Shown here: in pieces, positions 24,886 to 37,527 of the stretch
How the letters are laid out: every line of letters starts with the position of its first letter
Numbering within the stretch: position 1 is the stretch's first letter
Assembly: GCF_000328765.2 (NCBI RefSeq)
Contig: NC_019954.2
Location: 124,001-188,000, forward strand
DNA length: 64,000 nucleotides
Direction of reading: 5' to 3'
DNA from: Tepidanaerobacter acetatoxydans Re1
Lineage (GTDB): Bacteria > Bacillota > Thermosediminibacteria > Thermosediminibacterales > Tepidanaerobacteraceae
Notes under the pieces: model-generated
Told to the model about the DNA's origin: nothing
The model's input: the letters and a program-made list of their open reading frames with translations, nothing else
Databases searched by the model: none
Program-made: the position numbers and the translations under genes

Positions 24886-26361
24886 TTGAATAAACCTATT
24901 GACAAAAATTATCAATTGTTAATTGGAGGTCGATGGGTGGATGCAAAGGATGGGGAGACGTTTGAGACTAACAACCCGGCAAATGGCGAGCTGTTAGCAA
25001 CTTGTGCCAATGCCGGTAAGGAAGATGTGGATGAAGCAGTTAAAGCTGCATGGAAGGCATTTGAAACGTGGAAAGATGTTAGTGCACAAGAAAAATCAGG
25101 AATATTACTTAAAATAGCCGATCTGATTGATGAAAATGCTGAAAAACTTGCTATGATTGAAACTCTCGACAACGGTAAACCCATTCGAGAAACACGAAAC
25201 ATTGATGTGCCGCTAAGTTCTGATCATTTTCGGTATTTTGCCGGAGCTATCAGGGCTGAAGAAGGCCAAGCCGTAATGATTGACAAGAACACCTTAAGCA
25301 TTATCTTAAGAGAGCCGATTGGAGTTGTCGGCCAGATAATTCCATGGAACTTCCCGCTGCTGATGGCGGCATGGAAGTTGGCACCAGCATTGGCTGCAGG
25401 ATGTACGGTTGTTATTAAGCCGTCGTCTTCAACACCTTTGAGCATTTTAGAATTAGGTAAATTGATCAATGATGTTCTTCCCCCGGGAGTTGTGAACATC
25501 GTAACTGGCAGCGGAGCCACCACAGGAAATTATATGTTGGAACATCCGGGATTTAGAAAACTTGCCTTTACAGGTTCAACCGAAGTAGGCTACAGTATAG
25601 CCGAGGCGGCAGCTAAAAAGTTGATTCCGTCAACACTAGAGCTTGGTGGAAAATCCGCAAATATTTATTTCCCAGACTGCCCATGGGAGAAGGCTATAGA
25701 AGGGGTGCAACTGGGCATCTTGTTCAATCAAGGGCAAGTTTGCTGCGCAGGCTCCAGGGTATTTGTGCATGAAGATATTTATGAAGAATTCCTTGCAGAA
25801 TGTGTTGAAGCCTTTAAGAAAATCAAGGTTGGTTTGCCATGGGAAGAAGATACTATTATGGGAACGCAGATTAATGAAGGTCAGTTGAAAAAGATTTTAA
25901 ACTATATTGAAATTGGAAAACAAGAAGGGGCAAGACTTGCCTGCGGCGGTTCTCGCATCACTGAAAATGGCTTAGATAAAGGATGCTTTATGCAGCCTAC
26001 GATTTTTGCCGATGTTGATAACAAAATGAGGATTGCTCAAGAAGAGATTTTTGGGCCGGTAGCATGTTTCTTGAAGTTTAAGGATGAAGAAGAAGTAATA
26101 AAAATGGCAAATGACAGCGAATACGGATTGGGCGGCGCTGTGTGGACTAAGGATATAAACAGGGCGCTTAAAGTTGCAAGAGGAATAGAGACAGGCCGTA
26201 TGTGGATAAATGATTATAACAACCTGCCTGCTCATACTCCCTTCGGAGGCTATAAGAAATCCGGAATTGGCCGCGAAACTCACCATATGATGCTTGACCA
26301 TTATACTCAGAAGAAGAATATAATGATAAGTATGAATGAAAATAAGGCTGGCTTATACTAA
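24886..26361 (+). CDS. NAD(P)-dependent aldehyde dehydrogenase
   Basis: A 491-residue aldehyde dehydrogenase of the classical betaine-aldehyde/retinal type, oxidising an aldehyde to the acid in the cytoplasm. It has the cofactor segment IIPWNFPLLMAAWKLAPALA (~147-166), FTGSTEVG (~226), the general-base STLELGGKSANI (~248-259) and the nucleophile segment NQGQVCCAGSRVFV with tandem Cys (~283), plus EEIFGPVACFLKF near 390. The start is a TTG at 24886, 9 nt after AAGGAG. Substrate cannot be read from sequence. It is monocistronic, ending at the hairpin at 26478. Confidence 0.93.
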   Translation: MNKPIDKNYQLLIGGRWVDAKDGETFETNNPANGELLATCANAGKEDVDEAVKAAWKAFETWKDVSAQEKSGILLKIADLIDENAEKLAMIETLDNGKPIRETRNIDVPLSSDHFRYFAGAIRAEEGQAVMIDKNTLSIILREPIGVVGQIIPWNFPLLMAAWKLAPALAAGCTVVIKPSSSTPLSILELGKLINDVLPPGVVNIVTGSGATTGNYMLEHPGFRKLAFTGSTEVGYSIAEAAAKKLIPSTLELGGKSANIYFPDCPWEKAIEGVQLGILFNQGQVCCAGSRVFVHEDIYEEFLAECVEAFKKIKVGLPWEEDTIMGTQINEGQLKKILNYIEIGKQEGARLACGGSRITENGLDKGCFMQPTIFADVDNKMRIAQEEIFGPVACFLKFKDEEEVIKMANDSEYGLGGAVWTKDINRALKVARGIETGRMWINDYNNLPAHTPFGGYKKSGIGRETHHMMLDHYTQKKNIMISMNENKAGLY

Positions 26362-26667: not shown

Positions 26668-27240
26668 ATGAGTGAAGACTTTGTTGATTTAAAAGGGTGC
26701 AAAACTCCTGAAACCTATAATAAATGTGCGTATCCGGCACCTTATCCGGAAATTAAGGTGGCAAGGGAAAATCCTTACTACGGCAAACTTTTGCTTGAAG
26801 ATTATGCAGGTAGAGCCGGTGAACTTACAGCAGTAAATCAATATATTTATCATCATTTTGTGTTGGAACCGGAATACGAAGAAGTAGCTGAACTCTTGTC
26901 CTGTGTAGCATTGGTGGAAATGCATCATATGGAAATTCTTGCTGATACCATATTAAAATTGGGAGTAGATCCCCGTCAAAGAACCATAGCGACAAACGAA
27001 GTCGAAATATACTGGGATGCAGGCTTCGTATATTATGGAACAGTCCTTTGTGACATGATAACTGCTAATATTGCCGGTGAATGGGCGGCCATAAGCAATT
27101 ACCGCAAACATCAACAGATGATAAACGATCTTTATGTGAAAAAGATTTTGGAAAGGATTATCTTGGATGAAATATATCATGTTCAGTTATTTAGCCAAGT
27201 AACTGAAAAATACTGTAAACCGAATATAAAAAAAGAGTAA
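26668..27240 (+). CDS. ferritin-like di-iron/di-manganese protein
   Basis: A 190-residue protein of the ferritin/rubrerythrin superfamily. A short Cys-containing N-terminus (KGCKTPETYNKCAYP) precedes a four-helix bundle with the metal-ligand pattern GELTAVNQYIY (~52), VEMHHMEIL (~84-92, ExxH), AGEWAAISNY (~133) and LDEIYHVQLF (~170, ExxH). It is close in style to bacterioferritin-like and spore-coat manganese-catalase-like proteins; oxygen or peroxide defence is the likely role in an anaerobe. Single gene between two strong terminators. Confidence 0.78.
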   Translation: MSEDFVDLKGCKTPETYNKCAYPAPYPEIKVARENPYYGKLLLEDYAGRAGELTAVNQYIYHHFVLEPEYEEVAELLSCVALVEMHHMEILADTILKLGVDPRQRTIATNEVEIYWDAGFVYYGTVLCDMITANIAGEWAAISNYRKHQQMINDLYVKKILERIILDEIYHVQLFSQVTEKYCKPNIKKE

Positions 27241-27287: not shown

Positions 27288-27350
27288 TTCTAACAAAATC
27301 AATATATGTTATAAAATATTAGGTGTTTTATAACATTTTCTAACAAAATC
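27288..27350. promoter_or_regulatory. candidate enhancer (UAS) for the sigma-54 activator
   Basis: A perfect inverted repeat, GTTATAAAA (27308-27316) and TTTTATAAC (27326-27334), is framed by two identical direct repeats TTCTAACAAAATC at 27288-27300 and 27338-27350. It lies ~200 nt upstream of the -24/-12 promoter, the usual distance for an enhancer bound by an AAA+ activator. The gene for such an activator closes the operon at 34602. Confidence 0.6.
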
Positions 27351-27533
27351 TATGTTTAATATTATAATAAGATATCGTAATATCTCGAAAATATAATTAA
27401 TATTATTGAGTTTTATTGTAAAAATGCATTAGTCAAAAGTTAGATTTAGCTTGCAATAGCAGTAAATATGGAAGAAATTTTGCATGTAATACTTTTATGA
27501 TAAGTTATATTATCAATATGTAATAAAAATAAC

Positions 27534-27547
27534 GGCATGATATTTGC
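27534..27547 (+). promoter_or_regulatory. sigma-54 (-24/-12) promoter of the TRAP operon
   Basis: GGCATGATATTTGC keeps the two invariant doublets GG and GC with exactly 10 nt between them, and TTTGCA around the -12 matches the consensus. It is 42 nt before the transporter gene. The sequence between 27351 and 27533 is AT-rich with no gene. Confidence 0.75.
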
Positions 27548-27588
27548 AATATAAAATATAATTATAAAACTATGAAAGGAGTTTTTTT

Positions 27589-28620
27589 ATGTCAAAAAAA
27601 AACCTAGCATTATTACTCATTTCTTTATTGATTATTGGTCTATTAGCAGGTTGTGGAGGAGGCCAACAGAACGGTAACGATGCAGCTCCATCCGGAAATC
27701 AAGACAAAGGTGGCACTATAACAATTAAAGTTGGTCATGTTCTTGCCCCCACCCATCCTTATACTCTTGGTTTGCAAAAGTTTGCGGAATTAGTTGATGA
27801 GAAAACCGATGGTAAAATCAAGGTAGAGGTATTCCATAGCTCTCAACTGGGCAACGAGAGAGATATGGTAGAAGCACTGCAGCTCGGGACCCAAGAGATG
27901 ACATTGGTATCAACAGCTCCTTTAGCCAGTTTTACAAAGCAGTTTTTGGTTTTTGACTTACCCTTTGTTTTCAAAGATACAGAATCCGCCAGAAAGGTTT
28001 TAGACAGCGAATTGGGTCAGGGACTGCTAAATTCTTTAGAGAGCCAAGGGATTATGGGTCTTTGCTATTTTGAAAATGGATTCAGACATGTGACAAACAG
28101 CAAACATCCTATAAACAAACCTGAGGATTTAAAAGGAATTAAAATACGGACCATGGAAAATCCAATCCACATGGCTACTTTTAAGGTTATGGGTGCTGAT
28201 CCTACTCCAATGGCTTTTGGAGAATTGTTCACAGCTCTACAGCAGAAAACCATCGATGCACAGGAAAATCCCTTACCAATAATAGAAACTTCAAAATTCT
28301 ATGAAGTTCAAGAATATCTTTCTTTAACAGGTCACTTTTATGCACCAGCCCCATTGCTTATCAGTAAATCATTTTTTGAAGGTTTAGCTCCAGAACTTCA
28401 GGCAGCTCTAAAAGAAGCAGCTATTGAGGCTAGAGACTATGAGAGAGGTTTGCTCGACGACATGAATGCCAAACTTGTGGAAGAATTGAAGGAAAAAGGC
28501 ATGAAAGTTAACGAGCCTGATAAAACTCTTTTTGTAGAAGCGGTTCAGTCGGTCTACAAGCAGTTTGAATCAGATATTACTCCTGAGTTAATTCAGAAAG
28601 TAGTCGATGCTCAGAAATAA
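27589..28620 (+). CDS. dctP: TRAP transporter substrate-binding protein (DctP family)
   Basis: A 343-residue extracytoplasmic solute receptor. It has a lipoprotein signal with LLAGCGGG (Cys22), then the DctP fold: KVGHVLAPTHPYTLGLQKFA (~46-65), FHSSQLGNERDMVEALQLGT (~84-103), the conserved KGIKIRTMENPIH region with the carboxylate-binding Arg (~182), and TALQQKTIDAQENPL (~224-238). These receptors bind organic acids and hand them to DctQM. A hairpin after the stop suggests it is made in excess over the membrane parts. The ligand is unknown; the downstream LarA-like gene hints at a 2-hydroxy acid. Confidence 0.93.
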   Translation: MSKKNLALLLISLLIIGLLAGCGGGQQNGNDAAPSGNQDKGGTITIKVGHVLAPTHPYTLGLQKFAELVDEKTDGKIKVEVFHSSQLGNERDMVEALQLGTQEMTLVSTAPLASFTKQFLVFDLPFVFKDTESARKVLDSELGQGLLNSLESQGIMGLCYFENGFRHVTNSKHPINKPEDLKGIKIRTMENPIHMATFKVMGADPTPMAFGELFTALQQKTIDAQENPLPIIETSKFYEVQEYLSLTGHFYAPAPLLISKSFFEGLAPELQAALKEAAIEARDYERGLLDDMNAKLVEELKEKGMKVNEPDKTLFVEAVQSVYKQFESDITPELIQKVVDAQK

Positions 28621-28648: not shown

Positions 28649-28670
28649 CATATAACAAGGAGTGACATTT

Positions 28671-29147
28671 GTGGAAAAGGTAAAAAAAATCTTCAATAAT
28701 ATAGAAGAATTTTTTGTCGTTATTTTATTGCTTATTATGACAGTGGTGGTTTTTTGGCAGGTTGTATGTCGGTTTGTGCTTAAGGCATCATTACCTTGGT
28801 CAGAGGAATTATCCCGCTATATTTTAGTATGGGTTACATTTTTAGGAGCGAGTATTGGTGTAAAACGTGGTGCTCATATAGGTGTAGAAGCATTTTTAAT
28901 GTTGCTTCCCAAGCAGGCAAGAAAATTGGTAAACTATCTTATTTCTGCTGTTTGTGTAATATTTTGCTTTATAGTATTTAAAGAAAGCTTAAGTATCATT
29001 GAAATGCAAATAGCAAATGCTCAGGTTTCGCCGGCTATGCAGATCCCCATGTGGTGGGCTTATTTAGCAATACCGGTGGGCATGGTGCTTATGAGCATTA
29101 GATTTATTCAAGTTTCTTTGAAGTTAAAATCGGAAGGTGAGGTTTAG
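28671..29147 (+). CDS. dctQ: TRAP transporter small membrane subunit (DctQ family)
   Basis: A 158-residue, four-helix membrane protein: helices near residues 15-35 (FFVVILLLIMTVVVFWQVV), 50-65, 88-108 (LISAVCVIFCFIVFKES) and 125-145. The DctQ-typical PWSEELSRYILVWVTFLGAS follows the first helix. GTG at 28671 with AAGGAG 8 nt upstream is preferred over the GTG at 28662, which overlaps that site. It is 2 nt before dctM, as usual for the pair. Confidence 0.9.
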   Translation: MEKVKKIFNNIEEFFVVILLLIMTVVVFWQVVCRFVLKASLPWSEELSRYILVWVTFLGASIGVKRGAHIGVEAFLMLLPKQARKLVNYLISAVCVIFCFIVFKESLSIIEMQIANAQVSPAMQIPMWWAYLAIPVGMVLMSIRFIQVSLKLKSEGEV

Positions 29148-29149
29148 CT

Positions 29150-30430
29150 ATGTCAGCGATATTATTTGGTAGCTTTATTCTTTTTGCAATAATGGGCTTG
29201 CCCATCGCTATTGTGCTAGGACTTTCATCTGTCATGGCTATATCTATGGCCAGTAATATTCCTTTGATGGTTGTGGCTCAAAGGATGTTCACAGCATGTG
29301 ATTCCTTCCCGCTTATGGCTATACCATTTTTTATGATGGCGGGATCACTTATGGAAAGTGGTGGTATATCCAGAAGACTCATTAATCTTGCCAATAAATT
29401 AGTTGGATCCATGACCGGGGGGCTTGCCCAAGTTGGAATACTGACATGTATGTTTTTTGCAGCAATTTCCGGTTCCGGCCCTGCTACTGTTGCTGCTATA
29501 GGTTCAATTCTTATTCCTGCGATGATAGAAGCAGGATATGATGCTGGTTTTGCAGCAGCTATTATGGCAGCAGCTGGAGCTATTGGGGTCACTATTCCTC
29601 CCAGTATTCCCATGGTCACATATGGTGTTGTGGGAGGAGTTTCTATTGGTTCGCTTTTCATGGGCGGGTTCGGTGCAGGTCTTGTGGTCGGATTATCTCT
29701 TATGGCTGCAGTTTATATAATTTCAAAAAAAAGAGGTTACTATGGCGAAAAAGAGCGTCCTACTTTTTTAGATATATTAAAAGCCGTAAAAGAGGCCTTT
29801 TGGGCTATCCTTATGCCTATTATTATTTTAGGCGGTATATATGGCGGCATTTTTACACCGACTGAAGCTGCTGCCGTTGCTGTTGTCTATGGGTTTGTCA
29901 TAGGATTTTTTATATATCGTGAGCTTAGTGTCAAGGATCTGCCTAAGATATTTGTGAATACTGCCGTTAGCACTTCAGTGGTTATGTTCATTATTTCTAC
30001 CGCCCAAGTTTTTGGCTGGATAATGACGAGTCAGAGAATACCGGACCAGATTGCTCAGGCCTTTATTAATTTCTCCACAAGTCCTTATGTAATACTGCTG
30101 CTTATAAACCTATTGCTGCTTGTTGTAGGTTGCTTTATGGAAACTAATGCCGCAATTATTATATTGGCTCCTATATTTTTGCCTCTTATAGTCAAACTGG
30201 GGATAGATCCTATTTTGTTTGGACTGATTATGGTGGTCAACCTTGCTATAGGAATGATTACACCACCTCTTGGTGTTAACCTGTTTGTGGCTTGTGGCAT
30301 ATGTGACATGACACTGGAGAGAATATCAAAGTCTGTATTACCTTTCCTGATTGCCATGATAGTAGCCCTCATGCTGATAACATATATCCCAGGAATTACG
30401 ATGTTCTTACCGAACTTGCTGACGAAATAG
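29150..30430 (+). CDS. dctM: TRAP transporter large membrane subunit (DctM family)
   Basis: A 426-residue permease subunit with about 12 membrane spans. Typical segments are RMFTACDSFPLMAIPFFMMAG (~45-65), ISGSGPATVAAIGSI (~107-121), GVTIPPSIPMVTYGV (~145-160), GIFTPTEAAAVAVVYG (~235-250) and GMITPPLGVNLFVACGI near the C-terminus. It uses a sodium or proton gradient to import the receptor-bound acid. It completes a standard dctPQM order and ends 15 nt before the LarA-like gene. Confidence 0.95.
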   Translation: MSAILFGSFILFAIMGLPIAIVLGLSSVMAISMASNIPLMVVAQRMFTACDSFPLMAIPFFMMAGSLMESGGISRRLINLANKLVGSMTGGLAQVGILTCMFFAAISGSGPATVAAIGSILIPAMIEAGYDAGFAAAIMAAAGAIGVTIPPSIPMVTYGVVGGVSIGSLFMGGFGAGLVVGLSLMAAVYIISKKRGYYGEKERPTFLDILKAVKEAFWAILMPIIILGGIYGGIFTPTEAAAVAVVYGFVIGFFIYRELSVKDLPKIFVNTAVSTSVVMFIISTAQVFGWIMTSQRIPDQIAQAFINFSTSPYVILLLINLLLLVVGCFMETNAAIIILAPIFLPLIVKLGIDPILFGLIMVVNLAIGMITPPLGVNLFVACGICDMTLERISKSVLPFLIAMIVALMLITYIPGITMFLPNLLTK

Positions 30431-30445
30431 AAGGGAGTTATTATT

Positions 30446-31696
30446 GTGGACTATCCGGTTATATATAGAATCAAACAAAGGTTCGATGAATATAAAATAG
30501 TAAACATTGAACAAGCTGTTCAAAAGGAGCTGGAGGTTTTAAAAGAACGGAATGCTATCAAACCTGGTATGAATATTGCAGTTACTTGTGGTAGCCGTGG
30601 CATAGCCAATATTTCCCTTATTATCAAAACTACCATAGATTATCTAAAGGATTTAGGTGCTAGGCCTTTCGTCATTCCTGCCATGGGTAGCCATGGAGGG
30701 GCTACCGCAGAAGGCCAGACCATGGTACTTGAAAAACTGGGAGTAACTCCTGAGACCATGGGAGTTCCGGTGGTATCATGCATGGATGTAGTAAAAATCG
30801 GAGAAACCCCTGAAAGTGTACCGATATATATGGACAAAAACGCTTATAATGCCGATGGAATTATTGTTATTAACCGAGTAAAGCCTCATACGGACTTTAA
30901 GGGTAATATAGAAAGCGGTCTTTTAAAAATGCTGGCTGTAGGTCTCGGTAAGCATAAAGGATGTTCTACTATCCATGCTAACGGCCTAGAAGATACCATA
31001 CCCAAAGTAGCTCGAGCGATTCTTGAGAAAGCTCATGTAATTTTTGGTTTAGCAATCCTAGAAAACTCCAAGGATGAGACCTATAAGTTAAAAGGCCTGT
31101 TCCCTCAGGATTTTGAAAGAGAAGAACGGCTTTTATTAAAAGAAGCAAAATCCATAGTTCCCAAACTTCCATGGGATTATTTAGACATATTAGTAGTGCA
31201 AGAGATGGGCAAGACCTTTAGCGGCACCGGTATGGATACTAAAGTAATCGGCAGAATAAGGGTTTTTGGAGAAGAGGAAATGGAAAAGCCTTGTATTAAT
31301 AAAATCGTAGTTTTGGATCTTTCCGATAACTCTTATGGTAATGCTCTTGGTGTAGGTCTTGCAGATATAACTACAAAAACCTTAGTAGATAAAATCGATT
31401 TTGATGTAACCTATGCCAATACAATACCTACAACGTATTTAGAAAGAGGAAAAATTCCTGTAATAATGAAAGATGACAGGGAAGCAATAAAAACAGCAAT
31501 GATGACCATCGGAAATGTTCCTTTAGACCGACTGAAACTTGCCATAATCCCTAATACGCTGCATCTTGAGGAAATATATGCTACAAAAGCAGCAATTGAG
31601 GCTCTAAAGGATAAGGACAAAATATCTGTTCTTGATGAAGGACATCCATTGAATTTTGATGAGTCTGGTTCATTGATAGTAAATTGGAGGAGATAA
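30446..31696 (+). CDS. LarA-like protein (DUF2088 / lactate racemase family)
   Basis: A 416-residue homologue of the nickel-pincer racemase LarA. Recognisable parts are NIAVTCGSRGIANISLII (~44-61), VIPAMGSHGGATAEGQTM (~77-94) and INRVKPHTDFKGNIESG followed by LLKMLAVGLGKHKG (~142-172), which hold the family's conserved His and Lys. Family members racemise or epimerise 2-hydroxy acids, or do related chemistry. No larB, larC or larE cofactor gene is present here. GTG start behind AAGGGAG. The coupling to a TRAP transporter suggests action on the imported acid; the substrate is not known. Confidence 0.8.
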   Translation: MDYPVIYRIKQRFDEYKIVNIEQAVQKELEVLKERNAIKPGMNIAVTCGSRGIANISLIIKTTIDYLKDLGARPFVIPAMGSHGGATAEGQTMVLEKLGVTPETMGVPVVSCMDVVKIGETPESVPIYMDKNAYNADGIIVINRVKPHTDFKGNIESGLLKMLAVGLGKHKGCSTIHANGLEDTIPKVARAILEKAHVIFGLAILENSKDETYKLKGLFPQDFEREERLLLKEAKSIVPKLPWDYLDILVVQEMGKTFSGTGMDTKVIGRIRVFGEEEMEKPCINKIVVLDLSDNSYGNALGVGLADITTKTLVDKIDFDVTYANTIPTTYLERGKIPVIMKDDREAIKTAMMTIGNVPLDRLKLAIIPNTLHLEEIYATKAAIEALKDKDKISVLDEGHPLNFDESGSLIVNWRR

Positions 31697-31698
31697 TT

Positions 31699-32079
31699 AT
31701 GAAGTTAATGCATACTAGCTTACCTGAATTTAAGCTCAAGCTGCAGTCAGCGGTGATAAAACAGTCCCCCAACAAGACCTTTGAGTTAAAAGGAATAGAA
31801 AATCTTAAATCTGCAAAAATGCAGTCACTTCGCACGGGAAGAATAGAATTTGCTATTCAAGAAATAGCAGAAGATAAAGATATAGATAAGGTGGAAGTGG
31901 TGGTAATGCCGAGAGTGCCTGAGACCATGCATACGGTTATAGTAAAAGGTATAGAAAAAGACGGAACTTGCAAAAAGGCAATTTTAGAAGTTATAAATAT
32001 AATTCATCCTACTGAAGAAGCTGAACTTGTTGATGCAAAAGAAGTGGATGATCGAAGACCACCCATTGGGAGACATTAG
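31699..32079 (+). CDS. conserved protein of unknown function (unknown module, gene 1)
   Basis: A 126-residue soluble protein I do not recognise. It has a basic N-terminal half and a tail rich in acidic residues; VVVMPRVPETMHTVIVKGI (~70-88) is the most distinctive stretch and the C-terminus (DDRRPPIGRH) is strongly polar. The ATG at 31699 is placed after GGAGGAG at 31686-31692. It begins 2 nt after the LarA-like stop and precedes gene 2 by 15 nt, so it is an integral part of the operon and probably a subunit of a complex. Confidence 0.7.
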   Translation: MKLMHTSLPEFKLKLQSAVIKQSPNKTFELKGIENLKSAKMQSLRTGRIEFAIQEIAEDKDIDKVEVVVMPRVPETMHTVIVKGIEKDGTCKKAILEVINIIHPTEEAELVDAKEVDDRRPPIGRH

Positions 32080-32094
32080 AAGGAGGTAAAAAGC

Positions 32095-33117
32095 ATGGGA
32101 GAACTTACCGTAAGATTTATAAAGCAGGGAACCGGTCCAAAGCAAGGAGCTCCGATTAATATTGCTCTTATTGACAAAAGAGATGTAGAAGCATCCGGTA
32201 AAAGCTTGGAAGATGTTATACACATGGTTGCAAAAGTAGTAGGAGGACCAGTTGGGATAAATGTGTTTGATATGGATGCGGTGACAACCACCAGCGACGG
32301 CTTGGTAGTGGAGGGAGCTATTATTACCATGGCCGCCGGAGATATTGGTAAGGTTCATAAAGAATTCGGCATCCTGCATATGGAGGAGATGGAGGTTACC
32401 CATGAACTTATAAAAGAAGAACCCCATCTTGTACAGTGGGAAAAATATTATAAAGGCAAAAAACTCTTTAGGGGACCGGATCCTAATAAAAAGCTGATTC
32501 CGGTGCACAATGTAGTCATGACGGGGAAAGCAGTAAACAACAACTCGGCTACGGAAATGATGAACGCCGTTACTATGGAAGAGATCCTTCTTCCTATACT
32601 AGGGCAGTTGCAAATAATGAAGGACGAGCCTATTGTTTTTGGACTCACTGGAGAAGTGATTTCAGTAGGTATCGGGATGACTGTGGCAGAGAAATATGGC
32701 CGGGTATTTCCAACTCGTCAGTTTAGAGCAGGAGATACAGCCCACGGTTCAGGGGAGTATGCAAAAACCTTGAAAGCCAACATACCGTGTATTGTTGCAC
32801 CTAAGAGCGTGCTGGCAGGGTATATAATTCAGGCACTGGATGCCGGTATGATTCCGGGGCTGCACATCGGTTGCTCACCAGCAGTTCTTGCAGTAGCAAA
32901 CGCCAAGGGAGCTAAAATCGCCCTTGACAAAATTACTGAAAAAGCTAAAATCGAGTTAAAGAGTGTAGGAGTAGATGTAGATCATATGAAACCAGCGGTA
33001 TCTTTGATGACTAATAAAGAGATAATTGAAAAGGCCGATGATATAATACCCGGTGTGGTGGATCCTGTTCTAATAAGCTCATCTAATATAGTGACTAAAC
33101 TAACGCTTTCTATTTAA
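32095..33117 (+). CDS. conserved protein of unknown function (unknown module, gene 2)
   Basis: A 340-residue soluble protein without a family I can name. Glycine-rich, ordered segments suggest an enzyme: VVGGPVGINVFDMDAVTTTS (~47-66), EGAIITMAAGDIGKVH (~73), VFGLTGEVISVGIGMTVA (~182-199), RAGDTAHGSGEYAKTLKAN (~211-229) and GLHIGCSPAVLAVANAKGA (~258-276). The invariant-looking HGSGEY and GCSPA could be active-site parts. No signal peptide or membrane span. AGGAGG precedes the ATG. It is the largest of the unknown set. Confidence 0.72.
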   Translation: MGELTVRFIKQGTGPKQGAPINIALIDKRDVEASGKSLEDVIHMVAKVVGGPVGINVFDMDAVTTTSDGLVVEGAIITMAAGDIGKVHKEFGILHMEEMEVTHELIKEEPHLVQWEKYYKGKKLFRGPDPNKKLIPVHNVVMTGKAVNNNSATEMMNAVTMEEILLPILGQLQIMKDEPIVFGLTGEVISVGIGMTVAEKYGRVFPTRQFRAGDTAHGSGEYAKTLKANIPCIVAPKSVLAGYIIQALDAGMIPGLHIGCSPAVLAVANAKGAKIALDKITEKAKIELKSVGVDVDHMKPAVSLMTNKEIIEKADDIIPGVVDPVLISSSNIVTKLTLSI

Positions 33118-33127
33118 CTGGGGTGAG

Positions 33128-33493
33128 ATGGTGGATAATCAGGTCATAGTTTTTGTAGATAAAACCTATGTACGCATAACCGGAATTCAAATCAAGGGTT
33201 TAAAACCATTTGAATTGGAACAAACACTAAAAAATACTCTGCAAAGACCTATCAGAGTTATTGGTGTTACCGGCAGTGCAATAGAGATGGATATATATGG
33301 CATGGAACCAGAGGCAGTATATAAAGATGAAAAGGGGATAATAAAGGCTATTTCTACGGTTTCGGGAATAACCGCTGCCGACGTCATAAAAATAGCCCAA
33401 GCCGAAAGATCCGTAGAAGTTTCCGTTGAAAAGTTTCCGAAAGGTAAATACTCTGGGTGCGCCAGGGAAAGGTGGTTAAATTTTGACAAGTAA
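33128..33493 (+). CDS. conserved protein of unknown function (unknown module, gene 3)
   Basis: A 121-residue protein, not recognised. Alternating strand and helix pattern (VIVFVDKTYVRITGIQIKG, PIRVIGVTGSAIEMDIYGM, GITAADVIKIAQAERSVEVS) and a Cys near the end (KYSGCARERW). The start is ATG 33128 or GTG 33131; the GGGGTGAG just before fits the latter slightly better. Its 3' end overlaps the MoaB/CinA-like gene by 11 nt, which suggests coupled translation. Confidence 0.65.
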   Translation: MVDNQVIVFVDKTYVRITGIQIKGLKPFELEQTLKNTLQRPIRVIGVTGSAIEMDIYGMEPEAVYKDEKGIIKAISTVSGITAADVIKIAQAERSVEVSVEKFPKGKYSGCARERWLNFDK

Positions 33494-34013
33494 GGCCATC
33501 ATTATTCCTACTGGGGATGAGATATTAAACGGAACGGTAGTCGATACCAATAGTCCGGCTATAATGGCTCTAATTCTTGAGAGATTCCCGGGGTGTGAAG
33601 TTACACGGATAACTCCTTCAGTGGACAATGAAACTACAATTATAACAAAACTTAAGAGGGCTATTGAAGAAAAAGCCGATCTCATTTTTATCATAGGTGG
33701 TTCTGGAGGAGGCCATCGTTTTATACCTAATGCAGCTCGAGATTTTACCCATACGGCTATATTGAAGATGTTCCCCAATTCTTGTTTTAAGGAAATATAT
33801 GGAAAAAACGGACACTTGTGGTCAAAATTGATAGCAGCGAAAGAAAGCAATAGTTTATTGGTAAATGTTCCAGGCCCCTATGTGGAAGCCGTTGCGGCGG
33901 CTGAAGCTGCTCTAGATTCCATATTAAAGGGCGAGACAGATCCTCAAATTATTGTGGAAAGGACATCGGAAGCGGTATCCCGGCAGTATCCTTCTGGTGG
34001 AGAAATTAAATGA
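33483..34013 (+). CDS. MoaB/CinA-like (molybdopterin-binding fold) protein (unknown module, gene 4)
   Basis: A 176-residue protein with the MoCF_biosynth fold: IIIPTGDEILNGTVVDTNSP at the N-terminus and LIFIIGGSGGGHRFIPNAARDFTH (~65-88) in place of the family's GGTG...D.T. CinA N-terminal and MoaB/MogA domains share this layout. It is unlikely to be a general molybdenum-cofactor gene, since the rest of that pathway is absent; a nucleotide- or pterin-like ligand is possible. TTG start at 33483 inside the previous gene; its TGA overlaps the next ATG. Confidence 0.72.
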   Translation: MTSKAIIIPTGDEILNGTVVDTNSPAIMALILERFPGCEVTRITPSVDNETTIITKLKRAIEEKADLIFIIGGSGGGHRFIPNAARDFTHTAILKMFPNSCFKEIYGKNGHLWSKLIAAKESNSLLVNVPGPYVEAVAAAEAALDSILKGETDPQIIVERTSEAVSRQYPSGGEIK

Positions 34014-34612
34014 ATGGATTTGCTACTTTTTTAGTAAAAGATTTGACAAAGGACGGATATGCTATGGCGATAGCCGGGATCTGTCCTTTTTCCTTTACTG
34101 ATTCAATGGAGGACGAAATAAGTGGCTTAATAAGGAATTACAGTTTTAAACCCATTGATGATGTATTTATGACAGATTATTTCATGGCTCAATACTTTTC
34201 CAGATTTGCTCCAGAATATGTTTTAGCCTGGGGTATAACGATGCATGTGCCCCAAATGTCAGGCCCTACTGGAGGAATTATAGGGAATCCGCACATCGAA
34301 GCGAATTCGGCGAATAGCACCGGTGAATATATCGGCAGCGGTTTGAGTGTAGCCGCCCACCCCGGCGGCCCCGGGATTGTTATCGCCGGAGATCCCCAAA
34401 CGGCCCGGGAAATTCTTTCACTTTCGGAACCTTCGGATGGAGGGAAAACGCCTTTACTTGCGATGGCAAAGAGATCTATAGACTTTAATATCCCAGCTGC
34501 TATAATGATAACAGATGGTACAGGTTTTAATGCTGTGGGCTGTGCTTTAACCATTGAAGGCAGTGAAATAAAATATATATCTCTCGATAGGAGTGCACTT
34601 AATGAATATTAA
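34010..34612 (+). CDS. conserved protein of unknown function (unknown module, gene 5)
   Basis: A 200-residue soluble protein, not recognised. Distinctive parts are VLAWGITMHVPQMSGPTGG and IIGNPHIEANSANSTGEYIG (~75-113), AAHPGGPGIVIAGDPQTARE (~118-137) and IMITDGTGFNAVGCAL near the C-terminus. The run of Gly, Asn and Ser looks like a ligand- or metal-binding surface. It overlaps its upstream neighbour by ATGA and the regulator gene by 11 nt. Confidence 0.68.
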   Translation: MNGFATFLVKDLTKDGYAMAIAGICPFSFTDSMEDEISGLIRNYSFKPIDDVFMTDYFMAQYFSRFAPEYVLAWGITMHVPQMSGPTGGIIGNPHIEANSANSTGEYIGSGLSVAAHPGGPGIVIAGDPQTAREILSLSEPSDGGKTPLLAMAKRSIDFNIPAAIMITDGTGFNAVGCALTIEGSEIKYISLDRSALNEY

Positions 34613-36065
34613 TATGCTGTCTGATGAAGACAAGATGCCGATGCTGGAAACCACACTGGACAATCTTCGGGAAGGTGTAAATGTAGTTGATGAAAATGGA
34701 ACCCTTATATTCTCTAATAGGGCATCAGCAGATTATGCTCATTCTACCGTTTCGAAAATGATAGGTTCTCAAATAACCGAATTTTATCCCCGTGCCGCTT
34801 TGTTAGAGGTATTAAGAACTAAAAAACCTCAATTAGATGTAAAAATTGAACACGATGACGGCCGAAAGTATGTAGTAAATGCCGTTCCACTTATAATAAA
34901 TGGTAAGTTTAAAGGCGGTGTAGCAACTTTTCGTGATGTTACGGAGATTGAGAATTTGGGACAAAAATTAGAACTTTTAAAACAGGAACTCACTTTCAGT
35001 AAAGTAGATGACGCCTTTGAATTAATAGTAGGAAAGGACGGTAGCTTAAAAGAAGCTATAATAATAGCCCAGAGATCCATCGGTGCATTAGGAGGACCTA
35101 GGCACTCAGTTATATCAGGGGAATCAGGGACCGGTAAAACACTGCTGGCTCGAGCCATGTTCTATTTTGCTAAGAAAATCCATGTTATTTCAGAAGATGC
35201 CAGTTTTATAGAGGTGAATTGTGCACAATTTACAAATCCTGATATAGCAGCGGTAGAAATATTTGGATCAGAAAAGGGTGCTTTTACCGGCGCCACCGAA
35301 AAAAGAGGTTTATTTGAGCTGGCGGATGGAGGTGTGCTCTTTTTGGATGAGGCTCATGCATTAGCACATTATCAAACAATGCTTCTTAAAGCAGTTGAAT
35401 CAGGCAAGATCCGAAGGATAGGTGGCAGAAAGGATATAGATATCAATGTGATTGTTATTGCAGCCTCAACCAAAAATCTAAAAAATGTGCTTTTGCCAGA
35501 ACTGTACCAAAGACTTGCCCAGTATGAAATAAAATTGCCGCCTCTTCGGGAGAGACCGCTATCAGAAAAGGAAAAACTACTGAACTGTTTCATAGAAAAT
35601 TATGAGTACAATGCTGGTGACAAATATAATGTCAAACTCAAAATAGATTTTACAAATGAAGCTAAGGGTATTCTCTTAAATGCCTATTATCCGAGGAACA
35701 TCCGGCAGTTCAGAGATATAACTTATGCTACTATTGATGCGGCAGTACCTCTGATAAGCGATGTGCCTGCATCCAAAAAAGTCACTGCTGTGGTAGATAT
35801 AAATCATATACCCTTTTATATGTTTGAAAGCAGTGGAAGTGATGGAGTATATCAAGAACAGGAAGAGCCTAAAACCATAGAAAGTTTTAATTTTGATGAC
35901 AGCAAGATGGATAGAGAAGAAATATTAAACAAGATAATTTTTACTCTAAATGAGAAGGGTCTTGGGCCAAGGAAAATCGCTCGAGTGTTGGAAGAAAAAG
36001 GGTATGATATAAAGTACTATCAGGTAGCATATCGATTAAAAAAACAACGTAATTCAAATATATAG
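34602..36065 (+). CDS. PAS-domain sigma-54-dependent transcriptional activator
   Basis: A 487-residue enhancer-binding protein. An N-terminal PAS domain (~10-110, NLREGVNVVDENGTLIFSN) is followed by the AAA+ domain with Walker A GESGTGKTLLA (~178), the sigma-54 contact loop KGAFTGATEKRG (~227), Walker B GGVLFLDEAHA (~243) and R-fingers (LPPLRERPLSEKEK). The C-terminal ~50 residues (LNEKGLGPRKIARVLEEKGY) form a DNA-binding helix-turn-helix, not the common Fis type. ATG 34602 lies 9 nt after AGGAG; GTG 34593 overlaps it. It most likely activates the operon's own promoter at 27534 in response to a small molecule bound by PAS. Confidence 0.92.
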   Translation: MNINMLSDEDKMPMLETTLDNLREGVNVVDENGTLIFSNRASADYAHSTVSKMIGSQITEFYPRAALLEVLRTKKPQLDVKIEHDDGRKYVVNAVPLIINGKFKGGVATFRDVTEIENLGQKLELLKQELTFSKVDDAFELIVGKDGSLKEAIIIAQRSIGALGGPRHSVISGESGTGKTLLARAMFYFAKKIHVISEDASFIEVNCAQFTNPDIAAVEIFGSEKGAFTGATEKRGLFELADGGVLFLDEAHALAHYQTMLLKAVESGKIRRIGGRKDIDINVIVIAASTKNLKNVLLPELYQRLAQYEIKLPPLRERPLSEKEKLLNCFIENYEYNAGDKYNVKLKIDFTNEAKGILLNAYYPRNIRQFRDITYATIDAAVPLISDVPASKKVTAVVDINHIPFYMFESSGSDGVYQEQEEPKTIESFNFDDSKMDREEILNKIIFTLNEKGLGPRKIARVLEEKGYDIKYYQVAYRLKKQRNSNI

Positions 36066-36115: not shown

Positions 36116-37527
36116 CTAAGCCTCGCTTAAGAATGCATAATATGCTTTTTTGGCTTCATAGAGGTCGGCCTTGCTGGAGATTTCCCAAGGTGCGTGCATA
36201 TTGTGCAGGGCTATGCCTGCATCGATGACTTGCATACCGTAGTTGGCGAGGATATAGGCTATGGTACCGCCGCCACCCTGATCTACTTTTCCAAGTTCTG
36301 ATGTCTGCCAGATGACCTTGTGTTTATCCATGATGTTTCTGAGTTCTGCAATAAATTCCGCATTGGCATCATTGCTGCCGCTCTTTCCTCTTGATCCGGT
36401 GTATTTATTAAATACGATTCCCCTGCCAAACCTTGCACAATTCTTCTTTTCCATGACATCGGGATAATTTGGGTCAAAGGCCGCACTTACATCGGAGGAT
36501 ATCATCTTTGAATTGGCTAAGGCTCTTCTAACTTTCAGCTCACTATAGTCCCCAAGCAAGTTAGCAATTTCCGCTACGGTATTTTCAAAAAATCTTGAGT
36601 GCATGCCAGTAGCTCCGACACTGCCAATTTCCTCCTTATCAACAAGCAAAGCTACACAAGTCTTTTCAGGATTTTCTATTTCGGTTATAGCTTCAAAAGA
36701 TGTATAGGCACAAACTCTGTCATCCTGCCGTAAGCCATAATCATACTCTTATCTATTCCATAATGTCTCGCCTTTCCGGCAGGAACGATTTCAAGTTCCG
36801 CTGAGACGAAATCTTCTTCAACTATGCCGTATTTCTCATTTAGGATTTTCAAGATATTATGTTTGACTCTGTTCTTTGCCTCTTTACCCTTTAAGGGTAT
36901 ACTACCAACAAGTATATTAAGGTTTTCACCTTCTACACCATCGGCCAAGGTCTTTTTCATTTGGTCTTGTGCAAGATGGATTAGTAAATCCGATACTCCC
37001 AGCACTGGATCGCCCTCGTCTTCGCCCATAACTATGTTTATGCGGGAACCGTCTTTTTTCGCGATTACTCCGTGTAAGGCAAGGGGCAGCGTAACCCATT
37101 GATATTTTTTAATTCCGCCGTAATAATGGGTTTCAAAAAGTGCCAAGTCTGCGTCTTCATACAGAGGGTTTTGCTTTAAATCCAACCTTGGGGAGTCTAT
37201 ATGTGCTCCTATTATACAAAGACCTTCTTCTAAAGGCTTTTTTCCGATAACAAAAAGAGCAATAGTTTTTCCCATAATTTCCGCATATACTTTGTCTCCG
37301 GGCTTTAATGATTTTCCCTGGTTTATAAGTTCCTGTAGATTCCTGTAACCTTTCTTTTCTGCACGGCTTGTAAATTCTTCGACACATTCTCTTTCAGTTT
37401 TACAACGGGACATAAAATCGATATATTTCTCGGATAAATCAAATACTTTTTTTAAATCTGTTTTTGAATATTTATCCCATGCGATTTCGTATTCCTTTTC
37501 AAAGGGAGATTTATTATCTTCATTCAT
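36116..37527 (-). pseudogene. M18-family aminopeptidase, split by a one-base deletion near 36727
   Basis: Zinc aminopeptidase of the M18 family (aspartyl/aminopeptidase I type), which removes N-terminal residues from peptides in the cytoplasm. Fragment 37527-36685 begins MNEDNKSPFEKEYEIAWDKY and contains GAHIDSPRLDLKQNPLYED (metal His/Asp) and ends wrongly after SMIMAYGR. The shifted frame continues with DDRVCAYTSFEAITE and then, from 36649 to 36116, LLVDKEEIGSVGATGMHS (metal Glu-Glu). One added base gives ~470 residues, normal for the family, with the metal-binding residues of both halves intact. GGAGG precedes the start. The break may be a sequencing error. Confidence 0.88.

Follow-up and report, generated by a model that had tools for sequence, protein, structure and literature searches.

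A 64,000-nucleotide stretch of the genome of Tepidanaerobacter acetatoxydans Re1 (a single contig of 2,761,252 bases), hereafter the window, carries a tightly packed operon that encodes a TRAP transporter, a homolog of the nickel-pincer isomerase LarA, five small proteins and a PAS/AAA+ activator. We propose, with a confidence that falls just short of even, that the operon is controlled by sigma-54 and serves the catabolism of a small sugar acid, which would be taken up by the TRAP transporter, epimerized at C2 by the LarA homolog and converted to a 2-oxoacid by the five proteins. It is possible, and in our estimate clearly less than an even chance, that the five proteins form a multi-subunit enzyme system, with at least four families lacking known relatives, which would convert an aldonate to a 2-oxoacid by a chemistry unlike that of the dehydratase/aldolase and kinase/dehydrogenase routes and would work together with nickel-pincer epimerases. 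The proposal builds on the structure and conservation of the operon, its promoter sequence, the cofactor genes of the host, the family of the isomerase and the gene contexts of its relatives. If true, it would add a further route of sugar-acid breakdown in anaerobes, assign the nickel-pincer isomerases of group 22 a place in physiology, make testable enzyme subunits of four families that Pfam and NCBIfam do not contain, and connect a sigma-54 regulon with a nickel organometallic cofactor in acetogens and syntrophs, organisms of importance in biogas reactors.

Operon Structure and Conservation

The operon lies on the forward strand between positions 27589 and 36065 of the window, in the order dctPQM-larA-31699-32095-33128-33483-34010-PAS/AAA+ activator, the five small proteins (together, the module) being designated by the start positions of their genes. 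It opens with dctP (27589-28620) for the TRAP solute-binding protein (PF03480, 352 bits; TIGR00787 above the cut-off), followed by dctQ (28662-29147) for the small membrane subunit, recognized by its position and hydrophobic spans and retained ahead of the module in further loci, and dctM (29150-30430) for the large membrane subunit, with many hydrophobic spans and conserved along with dctPQ. The DctP match above the cut-off and the presence of the Q and M genes identify the transporter as a TRAP system. Directly downstream are the larA homolog (30446-31696), encoding a proposed aldonate C2 epimerase, and the genes of two core module proteins of 126 aa (31699-32079) and 340 aa (32095-33117), a 121-aa protein (33128-33493), a 176-aa protein with the MoaB/CinA fold (MoCF; 33483-34013) and a 200-aa protein (34010-34612); the activator gene (34593-36065) closes the run. 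Gaps of 2, 15 and 10 nt separate larA from 31699, 31699 from 32095 and 32095 from 33128, and overlaps of 11, 4 and 20 nt join 33128 to 33483, 33483 to 34010 and 34010 to the activator gene. An earlier note on this DNA, made from its letters alone and covering 30446-36065, had described a tightly coupled, TRAP-fed run; each of the open reading frames (ORFs) that it named is present with this spacing, and the operon start at dctP lies upstream of that interval.

Twenty further loci of 32095 (given L numbers below), with protein identities of 15–85%, came from a pattern-based scan of 84,980 genomes and from searches in sampled genomes. In the stretches around these loci, to which the presence counts refer, 31699 was found in 20, 33128 in 19, 33483 in 18, 34010 in 17 and larA in 15, several of the absences falling at contig ends, and the gene order was nearly constant. 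The adjacency of the module genes, on which the earlier interpretation hinged, is preserved in other genomes. The hosts include Thermosediminibacter, Clostridium, Fonticella, Sporomusa, Oscillibacter and a Chitinivibrionales metagenome-assembled genome. The module is rare, occurring in 9 of 398 evenly drawn genomes of the phylum; a tenth match in this sample (L033, E 5e-4) was discarded as spurious, being a tyrosyl-tRNA synthetase-like ORF, and sampling genomes widely a second time added no locus to those already found. When the window was compared with two relatives, nonsynonymous divergence (dN) of the five genes was 0.13–0.71 and synonymous divergence (dS) was at or near saturation; dN far below a saturated dS indicates that all five genes are under purifying selection as proteins.

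The genes of the module do not all travel alike. 31699 and 32095 always occur together, are the most conserved and contain many invariant charged residues; therefore, the active site is probably located in this pair, and which of the five proteins catalyzes is a guess. 33128 and 33483 move jointly and are set apart from the other module genes in L015. LarA is encoded in 15 of the 20 loci and a TRAP transporter in 10, and five loci (L013, L015, L018, L019, and L023) have neither a group-22 gene nor a TRAP transporter beside the module. These five loci are what would be expected if the target of the module were another metabolite of this regulon, with LarA and TRAP only co-regulated. We consider this explanation unlikely, given the frequencies of LarA and TRAP, the repeated recruitment seen in the LarA tree and a group-22 match in all module genomes tested, above the cut-off in 17 of 18.

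The Nickel-Pincer Isomerase and Its Cofactor Genes

The product of larA matched NF052515, nickel-pincer nucleotide (NPN)-dependent isomerase group 22, over its full length with 527 bits against a curated cut-off of 400. The catalytic, cofactor-attachment and nickel-ligand residues H83, H148, K161 and H177 are invariant in 16 module-linked LarA sequences, so that the LarA homolog pointed out in the earlier note is intact at these positions. By motif order, and with the help of PMC12393405, these residues are taken as the counterparts of LarA H108, H174, K184 and H200. The cofactor genes larE-larB-larC are contiguous elsewhere in the genome (C1:1739398-1742249), all above their cut-offs.

Group 22 is far more common than the module, being above the cut-off in 84 of the 398 genomes. 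It was present in all nine module genomes of this sample versus 75 of the 389 other genomes (p 6e-7); in a second set, nine of nine module genomes again had a group-22 match, eight of them above the cut-off. In a tree of 45 group-22 proteins, the module-linked LarAs were scattered over several branches, a single clade was rejected by the approximately unbiased test (p-AU 0.0003), and with the starred branches the label must have changed at least five times. This indicates that different group-22 isomerases have become associated with the module on more than one occasion, and such repeated association argues for a functional need.

The same association could mean that the five proteins are a helper set for loading, repairing or regenerating the nickel-pincer cofactor, with the MoaB/CinA-fold protein binding the nucleotide. 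The fold of 33483 handles nucleotides and molybdopterin, larC is found close to the module both in Sporomusa, where a sigma-54 site precedes it, and in L015, where the two are neighbors, and every module genome has a group-22 match. Nevertheless, the module is absent from 75 of the 84 group-22 genomes, the LarAs linked to it spread over separate branches, and the five loci named above have no group-22 gene beside it; the helper function therefore seems to us quite improbable.

LarA-type enzymes are reported to epimerize deoxy-tetronates and glycerate, and some LarA homologs to racemize 2,3-dihydroxyisovalerate (PMC11770544). In the open papers searched, neither a group-22 activity nor such a module was found described. 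At locus L088 (C1:1857000-1876500), the genome of strain Re1 itself has another group-22 LarA gene, this one lacking the module; its neighbors encode DapA-type aldolases, a malic enzyme, a protein of the FAA hydrolase family, SIS and pfkB-type proteins and an ABC transporter.

The Five Small Proteins

The earlier note could not assign any of the five proteins, and this holds for 31699, 32095, 33128 and 34010, for which nothing significant was obtained in Pfam, NCBIfam or a profile-based sequence search of the PDB. PDB rows for integrin, CoA-transferase, DsbG and aminomutase (E 0.01–0.06) were judged to be chance matches of these four proteins. The fifth, 33483, has the MoCF fold, as had been hinted (PF00994, 57.7 bits against a gathering cut-off of 26.6), and it matched gephyrin, MogA and CNX1 structures at E of about 1e-4 to 1e-3. 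Its identification as MoaB or as CinA is ruled out by the cut-offs of those families: it scored 45.9 bits versus 85.35 for molyb_syn TIGR00177, and with 176 aa it is not a full-length CinA, matching about the first 75 residues of the CinA models alone. No strong profile match placed the five proteins in a known pathway, and no described pathway came up in the literature searched, in keeping with the earlier note, which had been unable to match the run to one. In L014, L020, L021 and L054, an additional MoaB-like protein of 163–168 aa (cluster c14) follows 33483 and resembles canonical MoaB more closely than 33483 does.

In line with the earlier description, none of the five proteins has a signal peptide or an evident membrane span. 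One marginal hydrophobic stretch in 32095 (mean hydropathy 1.75 over 19 residues) lies inside the globular fold of the model. The motifs HGSGEY, GCSPA and GPTGG noted earlier are present, and one residue of each (H217, P262 and G88, respectively) is invariant across relatives. Identities over the 20 loci were 46–85% for 31699, with invariant H5, K14, K40, R45, R48, E75, H78, K93 and E97, and 43–77% for 32095; D11, K12, C111 and E114 are invariant in 33128.

The AlphaFold2 models of 32095, fairly confident (predicted local distance difference test, pLDDT, 84; predicted template modeling score, pTM, 0.88), and of 34010, very confident (pLDDT 92), had no Foldseek match at E ≤ 0.001, the Ntn-hydrolase matches of 34010 having E above 0.1, and we do not regard this absence as evidence of a new fold in either case. 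A second structural alignment of 32095 retrieved mostly DAP-epimerase, PrpF and proline-racemase folds, too weakly to be used (best Z 3.9, root-mean-square deviation (rmsd) 3.6, 117 of 340 residues aligned). The model of 34010 weakly resembles the alpha-beta-beta-alpha sandwich of a proteasome subunit, an Ntn-hydrolase (7lsx_J, VIA; best Z 7.7, rmsd 3.5 Å, 139 residues aligned), in a range where common arrangements occur. The five families showed no mutual homology by hhalign, and a scan of IMG/VR gave no viral relative.

Gene Neighborhoods and the Nature of the Substrate and Product

The closest solved relatives of DctP are 4pdh, 4nq8, 4p9k and 4pdd, which are proteins crystallized with erythronate or pantoate. 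In agreement with this, the closest solved relatives include the group that has been reported bound to pantoate, erythronate or keto-deoxygluconate (PMC11668362); the ligands in these structures may be co-purified.

The neighborhoods of the module loci were compared with those of ten group-22 loci without the module; in these ten, several enzyme names were assigned from BLAST matches with Pfam-checked representatives or by reading the sequence. Among the ten module-free loci, UxaA/GarD, IlvD/EDD or MR_MLE dehydratases occurred in four and KDPG- or DapA-type keto-deoxy aldolases in six, along with sugar-type kinases. The 20 module loci had no such dehydratase and no keto-deoxy aldolase (p 0.008 and 0.0004, respectively, versus the ten), and no ORF of the window matched a known sugar-acid dehydratase or keto-deoxy aldolase. 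The module-free locus L091 encodes a DUF1537 kinase, PdxA and a class II aldolase, and its LarA is 49% identical to that of the window, the other module-free LarAs being 40–43% identical. DUF1537 and PdxA are also encoded in three module loci (L010, L016, and L017). The earlier note had proposed uptake of an organic acid and had named hydroxyproline and dicarboxylates among the acids to be tried. A TRAP-fed operon is supported, and because other members of group 22 sit in sugar-acid catabolism, a small aldonate is likelier than hydroxyproline or a dicarboxylate. Taken together, the group-22 contexts, the loci with DUF1537 and PdxA, the DctP relatives and the known LarA-type activities point to a small aldonate, from which we infer such a substrate with tetronates in front; a four-carbon tetronate, e.g., erythronate or threonate, is our favored guess.

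Genes for 2-oxoacid oxidoreductases stand in or beside the module in five loci. A pyruvate:ferredoxin oxidoreductase (PFOR) gene begins one base after the activator gene in L012 and precedes larA behind its own sigma-54 site in L021; por genes precede 31699 behind a sigma-54 site in L013 and L015; and the cluster of L055 contains a Kor-type set. These Por, PFOR and Kor genes suggest that the product is a 2-oxoacid, pyruvate in most cases.

A substrate of another kind, pantoate or a different branched 2-hydroxy acid such as 2,3-dihydroxyisovalerate, with a product of the 2-oxoisovalerate type, would fit the same operon. Pantoate-bound structures among the DctP relatives, the racemization of 2,3-dihydroxyisovalerate by some LarA homologs (PMC11770544) and the L055 cluster, with its Kor/Vor-type 2-oxoacid oxidoreductase, short-chain dehydrogenase/reductase (SDR) and alcohol dehydrogenase, would agree with a branched acid. 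It is made unlikely by the pyruvate-type enzymes in other loci and by the sugar-acid enzymes that neighbor group 22 elsewhere.

Several observations weigh against the conversion of an aldonate to pyruvate by the module. The set of ten module-free loci is small. The difference in 2-oxoacid oxidoreductases, 5 of 20 module loci versus 0 of 10 module-free loci, is not significant (p 0.14), and two of the five loci are close relatives. In L010, L016 and L017, DUF1537 and PdxA could themselves degrade the imported acid, and the module would then have another task. Finally, pyruvate formate lyase, not PFOR, has been reported for T. acetatoxydans (PMC4374699).

In the extended cluster of L055 (G072), genes for a GlcD/GlcF-like oxidoreductase, an SDR, an alcohol dehydrogenase, the Kor-type oxidoreductase and an HpaB-family protein are interleaved with the module.

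Sigma-54 Promoter and Activator

A sigma-54 type -24/-12 promoter, CGGCATGATATTTGCA, was found on the forward strand at 27533-27548, 41 nt before the start of dctP, with 10 of 12 consensus positions; about 0.02 such sites would be expected per kb and strand. Sites with 10–11 of 12 positions also precede dctP in L007, L009, L011, L012 and L014, the chance expectation being 0.01–0.03 per kb and strand. Further such sites were found before porC in L013 and L015, before 31699 in L013, and before larC and PFOR in Sporomusa (L021). No site was detected at the cluster start in L008, L018, L019, L023, L054, L055 and L056; in L010, L016 and L017, a DeoR-type gene replaces the sigma-54 activator and the -24/-12 site is lacking. 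Because loose consensus matches across the whole window were not above chance, the weight of the promoter assignment rests on the conserved position. This conserved position and the GAFTGA loop of the activator bear out the sigma-54 control that had been read from the window before.

The activator contains an AAA+ domain (PF00158, 123 bits), a PAS_9 domain and the GAFTGA loop, and copies that are 49–68% identical are encoded near the module in L007, L009, L011, L012 and L015. Upstream of the promoter, at 27308-27334, lies a palindrome with perfect 11-nt arms, GTTATAAAA-N9-TTTTATAAC, which is the sole match to its pattern in the window versus 0.03 expected. The exact pattern recurred in one of 98 loci, before the porC promoter of L015; since this is just one other locus, the palindrome is only tentatively a candidate binding site for the activator of the operon.

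The top NCBIfam match of the activator was PrdR (NF041552), with 231 bits, below the cut-off of 795. This match, the several proteins of the system and its occurrence in clostridia-like fermenters and acetogens would be in keeping with a reductive system akin to D-proline/glycine reductase, in which the acid serves as an electron acceptor. Such a system is nevertheless very improbable in our view: the five families have no profile similarity to GrdE or PrdA (hhalign probability below 5%), no GrdE/PrdA gene is present in this genome (PF09338 absent), and the 2-oxoacid oxidoreductases of the relatives indicate oxidation.

Comparison with Known Systems and Proposed Mechanism

Operons for sugar acids that include a LarA epimerase are already known; what has not been described is the five-protein module within such an operon. 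The operon shares with group 22 the full-length larA product, the conserved residues and the cofactor genes in the genome, but here the isomerase is tied to five proteins absent from most group-22 genomes. It resembles tetronate catabolism by a DUF1537 kinase and a PdxA-type dehydrogenase in that three module loci, and a related locus with a group-22 LarA, carry this pair and that DctP is near erythronate binders; however, the pair is not found beside the module in the window and in 17 of the 20 relatives, where the five proteins stand instead. The logic of non-phosphorylative sugar-acid pathways, in whose clusters other group-22 LarAs are found, is also common to it, with a transporter, a C2 epimerase and an expected 2-oxoacid. 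In contrast, the UxaA/GarD or IlvD/EDD dehydratase or KDG/KDPG aldolase of those pathways is not encoded in the module loci, and no relation of it to the five proteins was found by profile: hhalign gave no similarity of the five families to UxaA/GarD, SAF, IlvD/EDD, KDPG aldolase, DapA, class II aldolase, PdxA or DUF1537, but the alignments are shallow and the fold comparison is weak. The prd/grd operons are likewise multi-protein, clostridial and equipped with a PAS/AAA+ sigma-54 activator, yet no homologous subunit was found here and the activator is far under the PrdR cut-off. With MoaB/MogA and the CinA N-terminal domain, 33483 shares the MoCF fold and the TGDE, DTNS and GG-G-G motifs, but it is below the molyb_syn cut-off and has no CinA C-terminal domain.

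In the pathway that we propose, the TRAP transporter would import the aldonate, with a tetronate favored, and the group-22 LarA, carrying the nickel-pincer cofactor made by larE-larB-larC, would invert C2 by transient hydride transfer to yield the isomer required by the next step. The five proteins would then replace the sugar-acid dehydratase and the keto-deoxy aldolase, with a 2-oxoacid, most likely pyruvate, as the output; 31699 and 32095 may form the core, 33128 and 33483 a second unit, and 34010 a fifth component. For a tetronate, we suggest only that loss of water and retro-aldol cleavage could give pyruvate and formaldehyde, both readily used by an acetogen. In related bacteria, the 2-oxoacid may pass to a pyruvate:ferredoxin oxidoreductase that is transcribed, like the operon, from a sigma-54 type promoter.

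Genes Flanking the Operon

Between an aldehyde dehydrogenase gene (at 24886), whose place agrees with that of the aldehyde dehydrogenase numbered 0142 in PMC4374699, and the operon lies a gene for a ferritin-like protein (26668-27240, forward strand), weakly similar to manganese catalase and encapsulin cargo and followed directly by a terminator-like inverted repeat with a T run. On the other side, an M18 aminopeptidase gene (36116-37527, reverse strand) is split into two frames, 36685-37527 and 36116-36649, by a frameshift or as a pseudogene.

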